From: Ruminococcus sp.
GTDB lineage: Bacteria; Bacillota; Clostridia; Oscillospirales; Ruminococcaceae
Assembly: GCA_017622635.1 (NCBI GenBank)
Contig: JAGAQS010000017.1
Span: 1-26,734 of the forward strand
Direction of reading: 5' to 3'
Length of the DNA stretch: 26,734 bases
The stretch's first letter is position 1; every line of letters starts with the position of its first letter. The translations under genes were made by a program, and so were the position numbers. The notes under the pieces were generated by a model. It did no database searches. It saw only the letters and a program-made list of their open reading frames with translations, and had not been told where the DNA came from. Below are positions 15,618 to 17,526 of the stretch, piece after piece.

Positions 15618-15896
15618 ATGTTGAAACAACAACCTGAACAACGGGCGGTAATTCTCGGGCAGTACATAATAGAAAACAAATCAACAGTGCGTGCTGCCGC
15701 TAAAAAATTCGGCATTTCAAAAAGTACAGTGCATAAGGACGTGAGTGAACGTCTTAAAAAGGAAAATCCGTCACTCTATGCACAGGTTAAGGATATACTC
15801 GAAATAAATAAACAGGAGCGTCATATACGTGGCGGAATGGCTACAAAGCTAAAATATGAAAAAATAGCAGAAAGAAAAATGAAATATAAATATTAA
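15618..15896 (+). CDS. spoIIID: Sporulation transcriptional regulator SpoIIID
   Basis: A small DNA-binding protein that adjusts mother-cell gene expression after sigma-E becomes active in sporulating Firmicutes. The 92 residues match the family in length and sequence. The helix-turn-helix reads STVRAAAKKFGISKSTVHKD, followed by VSERLKKENPSLYAQVKDIL and the conserved basic tail NKQERHIRGGMATKLKYEK. The start follows AAAGGAGGG. No convincing sigma-A promoter is visible upstream, consistent with use of a sporulation sigma factor, though I could not identify its boxes with confidence. An inverted repeat lies in the leader and a terminator follows directly, so it is transcribed alone. With pdaA (21950), it suggests the organism has a sporulation programme. 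Confidence 0.95.
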   Translation: MLKQQPEQRAVILGQYIIENKSTVRAAAKKFGISKSTVHKDVSERLKKENPSLYAQVKDILEINKQERHIRGGMATKLKYEKIAERKMKYKY

Positions 15897-15904
15897 TGTG
15901 GAAG

Positions 15905-15935
15905 GACTGTCATGTAAAAAATGACAGTCTTTTTT
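15905..15935 (+). terminator. Terminator after spoIIID
   Basis: A 9-bp perfect stem GACTGTCAT / ATGACAGTC with loop GTAAAAA, followed by T6. Confidence 0.92.
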
Positions 15936-15966
15936 GTACATATTTCACAACCTTGATTAAAACTGC

Positions 15967-15995
15967 TTGACAAAATTCGGGGGGGGGTGTACAAT
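15967..15995 (+). promoter_or_regulatory. Promoter with a G9 tract in its spacer (candidate phase-variable)
   Basis: TTGACA at 15967-15972 and TACAAT at 15990-15995 are exactly 17 bases apart. The spacer contains nine consecutive G residues (15979-15987). Slipped-strand changes in the tract would move the spacer away from its optimal length and alter transcription of the gene at 16115. The predicted leader is about 110 bases long. Confidence 0.8.
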
Positions 15996-16114
15996 AAGTG
16001 TATAAAAAATATTGCACAAATATTTAAAAAATATATTTTGGAATTTAAGAACAGATTGAAATATATTTTATATATTCTTTATGTTTTTAAAATATAAATA
16101 CGGAGGTATATACA

Positions 16115-16678
16115 ATGGGATTATTTGACAAAATTTCCAAAACTGCACAGAACATTAGTCAGTCTGTCAGCAAGACAGCATCTAATGTGGGTTCAAGTGC
16201 AAATGTAGCAATTCAGGAACAGACAGAATTAACAGAACTGCGTTCACAGATTAATGTTATCAATCAGGAACTTGAAGTGGCATATACACAGATTGGTCGT
16301 AAATATGTGGAGTATGTTCTTGAAACAAGCGAAATGCCGGGAATTGACATTTCTGATATTCTCAAGATGATTGACCCCAAGATGTCCAAAAAATTGGATT
16401 TGGAAAAGCGTATTGTTCAGCTTGAAAAGGAAATCAAGCAAAAAGATATTCTCAGGGCAAAGGGAAAAGTTGAAGAAGAATTTCTTTCTGAAAAAGCTAA
16501 GCTTGACAAGGCTCTTGGTATGGAACTTCTTACACAAGAAGAGTATAATGAAAAGATTACAATTGCCAGAAAAAAGGTTGATAACTTTGAAGAAATTCGT
16601 CGTGTAGAGCAACAGGCTGAAATGGGACTTATTACAGCAGAGGAAAAGGCAGCTAAACTTAAGGCACTTCTTTCCTGA
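16115..16678 (+). CDS. Coiled-coil protein with SHOCT-like C-terminal repeats
   Basis: A 187-residue soluble protein. The N-terminus MGLFDKISKTAQNISQSVSK resembles the start of many small Clostridia proteins of unknown function that continue into coiled coils. Residues 34-62 and 93-125 look like coiled coil (LDLEKRIVQLEKEIKQK). The C-terminal part has two segments resembling the SHOCT pattern of short helical pairs: LDKALGMELLTQEEYNEKI (130-148) and QQAEMGLITAEEKAAKLKAL (166-185). No membrane helix or signal peptide is present. GGAGG at 16102-16106 serves the ATG. The gene stands alone between a poly-G promoter and its own terminator. Its role is unknown; oligomerisation or binding to membranes or DNA is only a guess. 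Confidence 0.85.
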   Translation: MGLFDKISKTAQNISQSVSKTASNVGSSANVAIQEQTELTELRSQINVINQELEVAYTQIGRKYVEYVLETSEMPGIDISDILKMIDPKMSKKLDLEKRIVQLEKEIKQKDILRAKGKVEEEFLSEKAKLDKALGMELLTQEEYNEKITIARKKVDNFEEIRRVEQQAEMGLITAEEKAAKLKALLS

Positions 16679-16692
16679 AAAAATTATGAACA

Positions 16693-16725
16693 AAAAGGAC
16701 TGTCATTAAAAACGGCAGTCCTTTT
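16693..16725 (+). terminator. Terminator after the coiled-coil gene
   Basis: AAAAGGACTGTC pairs with GGCAGTCCTTTT (one T-G pair) around a 9-base loop, ending in four T residues. Confidence 0.85.
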
Positions 16726-16819
16726 GATATATATGAAAAGCAGTATTCTGATTTACACCCGATGTTCCGGAGCAATTCACGGGCGTAAATCAGCCACTCC
16801 AAAACAGCATATATCAAAA
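16722..16819. other. Nested inverted-repeat structure in noncoding DNA
   Basis: The inner stem CTGATTTACACCCG (16748-16761) pairs with CGGGCGTAAATCAG (16780-16793), 13 of 14 positions matching, around an 18-base loop containing TCCGGA. An outer repeat TTTTGATATATATG (16722-16735) faces CATATATCAAAA (16808-16819) with a two-base bulge. There is no T-tract after the inner stem, so it is not a terminator. It could be a structured RNA or a binding, recombination or repeat element. The bases up to 16958 show only a weak hairpin plus T6 at 16935-16954. Confidence 0.6.
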
Positions 16820-16958
16820 ATCCCTGCTTACTTTATTTTATGCAGAAACTTGTGAAATGCAACAAAGAAATTTATGGTATTCTTACAATCTGTCATTTTT
16901 GTTATATTTCTGTAACTGAATGGAATATTTCCGTAAGCAAATCGGTGCTTTTTTGTTA

Positions 16959-16987
16959 TTGCAATTTTCTTTCATAGGTATTATAAT
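16959..16987 (+). promoter_or_regulatory. Promoter of a candidate small RNA
   Basis: TTGCAA, a 17-base spacer, TATAAT, lying in noncoding DNA. The predicted start is near 16994. No open frame with a ribosome site follows before the terminator at 17076. Confidence 0.75.
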
Positions 16988-16993
16988 ATAATT

Positions 16994-17107
16994 ACAGCAA
17001 TATTAAACATTGTAAAAAAGAAAATTTCACCTGCGTCCCACACACCGCAGGTACTTACACACACCTTTAAAAGAGAACTGTCGGATTTTCTTCGGCAGTT
17101 TTCTTTA
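16994..17107 (+). ncRNA. Candidate small RNA, about 110 bases
   Basis: The segment sits between a good promoter (16959-16987) and a hairpin terminator (17076-17107) with no credible coding frame. It holds a 7-bp hairpin, ACCTGCG (17029-17035) with CGCAGGT (17046-17052), whose loop TCCCACACAC is C-rich. A further unpaired ACACACC follows. C-rich loops of this kind occur in Gram-positive trans-acting small RNAs of the RsaE type, where they pair with ribosome binding sites. This is an analogy, not an identification. The alternative is a leader with an attenuator for the gene at 17149. Confidence 0.5.
17076..17107 (+). terminator. Terminator of the candidate small RNA
   Basis: AACTGTCGGA pairs with TTCGGCAGTT (two G-T pairs) around TTTTC, followed by a T-rich tract TTTTCTTT. 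Confidence 0.75.
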
Positions 17108-17148
17108 CATATACATATACATAAAATATAAGAATAACGGGTTAAATT

Positions 17149-17526
17149 ATGAAAAATCTTGAACAAATAAAAGGTATTGACGAACTGCTGAAGAAACTTC
17201 CTGACGGGTATAAGTCTTTTTATCATTTCGGAACTATTGTAAGCCTTAATTACGGGAAAGAGTTCGACTATGAAAAAGCTTTTGATTATGTGGACTGTAT
17301 AGACATGGTTCTGACTGACAGGGAACATAAATACAAAATAAATGTTAAACTGATTGATATTGTGGGGGAGATGAGTTTTGATATACTTAACGGTTTCTGG
17401 AGCGGTTTGGACATAATATATCATGAATCTTATGATTACAGACATTATGAATTTACGAGTTTTGAGCAGGATATTTGTTTTGATGTGTGGTGCAGAGATA
17501 TTTCCGTAAAACTGGTGGAGGACTGA
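17149..17526 (+). CDS. Small soluble protein, immunity-like in appearance
   Basis: A 125-residue cytosolic protein of unknown function, acidic and rich in Tyr, Phe and Asp, without signal peptide or membrane helix. The C-terminal half (LNGFWSGLDIIYHESYDYRH, then FTSFEQDICFDVWCRDISVK) has the look of small beta-rich immunity-type proteins, but no toxin gene is adjacent and I would not assign a function. No clear ribosome site precedes ATG 17149, so initiation is probably weak. It lies 41 bases beyond the small-RNA terminator. A lipoprotein gene follows 4 bases after its stop, whose ribosome site (GGAGG 17517-17521) lies within this gene, so the two are coupled. Confidence 0.75.
   Translation: MKNLEQIKGIDELLKKLPDGYKSFYHFGTIVSLNYGKEFDYEKAFDYVDCIDMVLTDREHKYKINVKLIDIVGEMSFDILNGFWSGLDIIYHESYDYRHYEFTSFEQDICFDVWCRDISVKLVED

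Follow-up and report, generated by a model that had tools for sequence, protein, structure and literature searches.

A poly-G spacer of varying length in a candidate contingency promoter beside spoIIID of Ruminococcus sp., and related promoters in the Oscillospirales

The stretch of DNA under study, called the window below, comprises 26,734 nt of a Ruminococcus sp. genome and is contig C86 of the corresponding assembly (G000; 1.68 Mb, 382 contigs, 69% complete). It contains an intact spoIIID gene, followed by two hairpins that enclose a promoter with a run of nine Gs and one open reading frame. The features of the locus are:

15618..15896, + strand: spoIIID, intact, the upstream neighbour that marks the locus (PF12116, E 1.4e-36; TIGR02844 above cut-off)
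15902..15932, + strand: first hairpin, AAGGACTGTC..GACAGTCTTT and then Ts, terminator-like, upstream border of the putative gene slot (repeats I13 and D2)
15966..16027, + strand: promoter with early leader (block), in which the own genome, G083, and G002 differ by the tract only
15967..15972, + strand: −35 box TTGACA (sequence and promoter scan)
15979..15987, + strand: G9 tract within the 17 nt spacer, G8, G7, and G6 in sister species (sequence and species comparison)
15990..15995, + strand: −10 box TACAAT (sequence and promoter scan)
16102..16107, + strand: ribosome site GGAGGT (sequence)
16115..16678, + strand: open reading frame of a 187-aa all-helical protein, current tenant of the putative slot (ORF call, predicted structure)
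16693..16725, + strand: second hairpin, downstream border of the putative slot (inverted repeat I9, direct repeat D2)
16728..17060, no strand assigned: conserved non-coding block, recognized by eye in L023, L028, L029, and L034

The promoter, located 3' of the spoIIID hairpin, reads TTGACA-AAATTC-GGGGGGGGG-TG-TACAAT and has a spacer of exactly 17 nt. With a score of 11/12, it was the top one of 14 promoter-like sites that a promoter scan detected between 15500 and 17200, as compared with a mean of 7.2 such sites after shuffling of this region. Thus, the −35 and −10 boxes of a plausible promoter indeed enclose a homopolymer, and the first-pass annotation, which had reported TTGACA and TACAAT at the ideal distance around nine Gs, was correct in this respect. 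It had also described the tract as the sole long G run of the region, and this holds for runs of at least eight Gs within the window, where a single one occurs (read as two 8-mers that overlap; among 100 dinucleotide shuffles of the window, two had at least two G8 matches). The whole assembly contains two such runs, the window tract and one on contig C272 (L004, 3477-3484) that is located inside a 218-aa open reading frame, where slippage would shift the frame. Sites of the form TTGAC..G6+..TANNNT are represented in this assembly by the window promoter alone.

Three further candidate features around the promoter were rejected. An inverted repeat, TGTACAATA/TATTGCACA, overlaps the −10 box, but its reading as an operator was dropped because an equally good repeat appeared in 571 of 5,000 shuffles. 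Three Rfam matches, found when a structured RNA was sought in the leader and the downstream block (15850-17200), had E values of up to 1 and were far below the gathering score, at which no family was detected in the whole window. For a mobile origin of the promoter, neither phage and plasmid records nor viral contigs, the latter scanned for the exact pattern, gave a match. The first hairpin is missing from the output of a strict terminator scan.

The −10 box is separated from the open reading frame by an AT-rich leader of 119 nt, in which the promoter scan placed weaker sites at 16038, 16056, and 16087. These sites could be taken to mean that the 16115 gene is transcribed from elsewhere and that the G tract is incidental. 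However, the G-tract promoter is the best site of the region, with 11/12 at ideal spacing, and its block is conserved across species despite unrelated downstream genes, so that we regard transcription from another working promoter as improbable.

The locus can be pictured as a gene slot between similar AAGGACTGTC hairpins (D2, I9, and I13). Its present tenant was assumed in the earlier annotation to be SHOCT-like, a proposal that was not confirmed: neither Pfam nor NCBIfam, SHOCT included, gave a match to the 16115 protein at E 0.001. At the same threshold, 246 homologues were found; the named ones belong to assemblies of Ruminococcus and other clostridia. The predicted structure is all-helix with middling confidence (mean pLDDT 75); an assignment of function from it was abandoned, the best fold match in the PDB having an E value of 1.2 and the best sequence match one of 0.089. 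Inspection by eye showed no signal peptide in the protein, which is present in a single copy; it thereby differs from most members of the class with at least eight Gs described below. Relatives of the protein (L014-L018) are not preceded by a G tract in the upstream stretch available, which for L018 is 174 nt only. The non-coding block downstream of the second hairpin (16728-17060), which includes a 14-base inverted repeat (16748-16793) and belongs to no Rfam family, is conserved 3' of the spoIIID hairpin in many sister genomes. At the other side of the locus, matches to spoIIID itself are split near 15723-15736 in seven genomes (G002, G029, G018, G121, G140, G014, and G082), the two parts being separated by 17-25 kb or located on different contigs, as if an element inserts there. 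AAA-ATPase_like proteins, one of them with PDDEXK_9, are encoded beside the break in G002 and G121, and no recombinase was found among the seven proteins scanned.

When 125 genomes of the genus were searched at the DNA level, 96 gave matches, mostly via spoIIID. We read 14 loci 3' of spoIIID and two further places from a search with the promoter alone, which matched 25 genomes; 19 of these 25 matched only at up to 39.2 bits and were left out of the inspection. Each species is represented by one genome, so that differences in the tract are differences between species. The promoter was found in eight genomes. The tract and the spacer are G9 and 17 nt in the own genome, G8 and 16 nt in G083, G7 and 15 nt in G002, and G6 and 14 nt in G086, where the −10 box is TATAAT. 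G122 has an interrupted tract, GGGTGGG, and a spacer of 15 nt, and the orthologous promoters of G027, G088, and G121 have spacers of 17, 18, and 17 nt, respectively, without a G tract. From CTTGACA to the position 32 nt beyond the −10 box, the own genome, G083, and G002 differ in the tract only (from the −10 box onward, all 38 positions match), whereas the flanks are not conserved, with 43-44 matches in the 60 nt upstream and 24-25 in the 40 nt after the block; G086 and G122 have a few more differences within it. In these three species, the length of the tract is therefore the sole changing site, and the whole appears as a constrained promoter block with one site that changes. An invariant tract, named in the first-pass annotation as the result that would speak against phase variation, was looked for in the sister species and not seen, given tracts of nine, eight, seven, and six Gs.

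The genes behind the promoter are exchanged. The slot holds a 52-aa protein in G083 and a 159-aa protein in G002, both without a Pfam match, an apparent relative of the latter (by eye) in G086, and a LITAF-like zinc-ribbon protein in G122; G086 has an additional open reading frame with its own hairpin 5' of the promoter. In G027, the open reading frame has ten codons. G088 and G121 have another protein start in common, which is followed in the G088 assembly by an early stop. By eye, the slot is empty in G026, G124, G138, and G140, where the spoIIID hairpin directly adjoins the block located 3' of the second hairpin in the window. The 16115 protein thus appears to be one tenant among several, the gene behind the promoter differing among most species, and the assumed tie between the promoter and this gene did not hold, because unrelated open reading frames follow the same promoter in sister genomes.

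We propose, with a probability of about 60%, that the window promoter is a contingency promoter, the spacer length of which slips with its G tract. It would be a housekeeping-sigma (sigma-A type) promoter 3' of spoIIID in which the G tract forms most of the spacer. Replication slippage would add or remove Gs, and the G count would bring the distance of TTGACA and TACAAT closer to the optimum of 17 nt or take it further from it; as in porA and tp0126, by analogy, this spacing would raise or lower transcription of the slot gene up to the next hairpin. The predicted state is ON for G9 (17 nt, own genome), weaker for G8 (16 nt), and mostly off for G7 (15 nt) and G6 (14 nt). Slippage as the cause of the differences, variation within a strain, and any benefit from it are presumed in this model. 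The original claim of phase variation is partly supported by sequence comparison: a strong promoter is present, the tract sets its spacer, and the tract varies between species, but different genes follow this promoter.

Homopolymers are a known weak spot of sequencing and assembly, and the own genome is fragmented into 382 contigs, so that the lengths might be errors and the true tract constant. This explanation is very hard to reconcile with separate genomes that differ by up to three bases, with the interrupted tract of G122, with the location of the G002 copy on a 1.4-Mb contig, and with the recurrence of graded lengths in other genomes at zero reversed-control matches, and we assign little weight to it. 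Neutral slippage deserves more attention: homopolymers mutate fast, and if expression of an accessory gene hardly matters, spacers would drift unselected. The single-copy state of the locus fits this explanation, as do the frequent replacement of the slot gene, its reduction to ten codons or its absence in the genomes listed above, and the lack of signs of a surface protein in the window gene. However, a neglected promoter should lose its boxes and leader too, and both are conserved, down to identity in three species, in contrast to the flanks; in addition, the same design precedes secreted proteins in other genera. We therefore consider neutral drift of the spacer unlikely, although less so than the other alternatives, and retain the contingency promoter as the preferred interpretation.

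To what extent a G run in a spacer is special can be judged from the genus. Spacer sites with at least six Gs were found in 40 of the 125 genomes (64 rows, or 53 sites after overlaps were merged), and the reversed-pattern control gave 18 raw matches (table summed by hand). At least five of six −10 positions matched in 39 of the 53 sites, and 21 of these 39 had a spacer of exactly 17 nt, so that spacers of 14-16 nt are off the local norm. With C6 in place of G6, there were 27 sites (28 rows merged) in 24 of the 125 genomes, nine with good −10 boxes and five at 17 nt. Spacer G runs outnumber C runs just two- to four-fold. Several promoters with G6-G7 spacers precede housekeeping-looking genes, among them L101, behind which starts what we take to be a ribosomal L21-like protein. 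Some G6-G7 spacer runs are identical in two or three genomes, which implies that many G runs do not switch. A G run alone therefore seems to be no sign of switching, and because short runs need not switch, the change in tract length at the locus is stronger evidence than the run itself. The argument of the first-pass annotation is limited in this way: the tract is the only G8+ run of the window and its length changes at the locus, but G6-G7 spacer runs are not rare in the genus and some of them do not change. The genus contains a second promoter with a G9 spacer (L086, G069:C77; spacer 18 nt, TATAAT), located before a gene for a signal-peptide protein, the end of which presumably resembles a dockerin repeat. 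No orthologue of this promoter was found in the 125 genomes; 31 matched, with short non-self pieces of at most 48 bits.

To cover the order, 394 genomes drawn from 168 genera were scanned for spacers with at least eight Gs. Such promoters occur in 24 genomes and 18 genera, with 87 raw matches versus two in the reversed control (summed by hand, overlapping readings counted separately). The open reading frames behind them encode lipoproteins, signal-peptide proteins, and BspA-type leucine-rich-repeat proteins, and PF13306 was detected in 2 of 10 proteins scanned. As a baseline, we used plain TTGACA-N17-TATAAT promoters, one or two from each of 23 other genomes that have G8+ sites. According to a crude signal-peptide rule, 21 of 26 open reading frames behind G8+ promoters look secreted, versus 9 of 29 behind ordinary ones (Fisher p 3.5e-4, which is optimistic since the G8+ set holds paralogues from single genomes); promoters without an open reading frame (1 of 27 and 2 of 31, respectively) were left out. 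For the G6+ sites of the genus, the value was 6 of 21. Thus, the G8+ spacer design recurs in the order, mostly before open reading frames with signal-peptide-like starts. Two genomes, G388 (L118 and L141) and G451 (L119, L142, L151, and L157), have paralogous genes for secreted proteins behind promoters of the form TTGACAAAAT..G9-G12..TAGAAT, with tract lengths that differ among paralogues within one genome; the L118 protein has BspA-type leucine-rich repeats.

A family of lipoprotein promoters was found in the genus of Faecalibacterium sp. An121, in which 11 of 31 genomes have a spacer site with at least seven Gs and the reversed control gave none. The tally comprises 68 copies with 6-10 Gs from seven genomes (L133, L135, L153-L186, and L226-L248), and all downstream open reading frames that were read belong to one lipoprotein family. 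It omits six rows that do not follow the template (two of G517, one each of G531, G541, and G542, and one of the eight of G526), and it includes 24 rows of G464 from a separate listing (the genus-wide scan lists 23). The spacers are 13 nt (2 copies), 14 nt (5), 15 nt (43), 16 nt (15), and 17 nt (3) long. With 43 of the 68 promoters at 15 nt and three at 17 nt, either most of them are off, or 15 nt works there. If 17 nt is the optimum, most copies would be expressed at a low and a few at a high level; if 15 nt works, the spacer part of the model is wrong for the lipoprotein promoters.

The clearest case is G464, with 24 listed copies of TTGACAC(C)-Gn-(T/C)ATGTTATGAT. Nineteen of them were read; all agree in the first 12 downstream positions, and the upstream flank varies at scattered positions. 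The tracts of these near-identical copies are G8 in nine, G9 in seven, G7 in two, and G6 in one. Many copies are located near contig ends, as repeats would be, which leaves several downstream genes unreadable. The eight downstream proteins that were read are identical in their first 20 residues; they share MKLKKIASLALAGIMAVSML as well as a lipobox and diverge thereafter. At E 0.001, there are 2,423 homologues. The window locus is not part of such a multigene family, as there is one G6+ spacer site in its genome and no signal peptide was seen by eye in its protein.

These observations lead us to a broader proposal, which we hold with slightly less confidence than that for the window promoter, at little better than even odds: gut clostridia of the order, Faecalibacterium included, may possess a large, unrecognized repertoire of phase-variable surface proteins, in which a genome would have as many as two dozen lipoprotein genes under promoters with individually slipping poly-G tracts, most of them low and a few high. 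The window promoter would be an outlying example of this design that serves a slot with exchangeable genes. If this is true, a clone of a gut or rumen commensal would comprise several surface types, with consequences for phage resistance, immune recognition, and differences between strains of Faecalibacterium-like bacteria. The idea is directly testable, since a tract of a few bases can be counted in reads that already exist.

To our knowledge, promoter switching by homopolymers has been described mainly in pathogens, to which all the cases cited here belong. The mechanism is thus of a known kind, and no report of it in these bacteria was found in the open-licence literature: searches for phase variation together with Ruminococcus, Ruminococcaceae/Clostridium, Oscillospirales, and Faecalibacterium gave no such system among the titles and beginnings of abstracts listed (10 of 35 in one of them), and term counts gave zero occurrences of Faecalibacterium and Firmicutes in the main text of a 2025 review on phase variation. 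According to passages of one source, porA of Neisseria meningitidis and tp0126, the OmpW homologue of Treponema pallidum, have a poly-G tract between the boxes, the length of which sets their distance, with about 17 nt as the optimum (PMC7864442). Similarly, insertions and deletions in a promoter poly-A tract are described, in the relevant part of another, to switch transcription of the Vlp lipoproteins of Mycoplasma hyorhinis gene by gene (PMC10502178). The window promoter resembles the porA and tp0126 promoters, as described there, in that poly-G between the boxes sets the spacing. Unlike them, it is a predicted switch, its host is a clostridium with spore genes, it serves a slot of exchangeable, non-homologous genes, and its current tenant is no known surface protein. 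The likeness to Vlp, as far as it is described in that part, holds for the wider class and not for the single-copy window locus: the lipoprotein family of the An121 genus also has many genes, each with its own promoter homopolymer, the length of which differs between copies (G6 to G10 across the 68 copies of seven genomes), and in G464 the genes share promoter and signal peptide and have divergent mature parts. In contrast to Vlp, this family uses G instead of A, reaches up to 24 listed copies per genome on many contigs, and has so far been recognized here in genome sequences.
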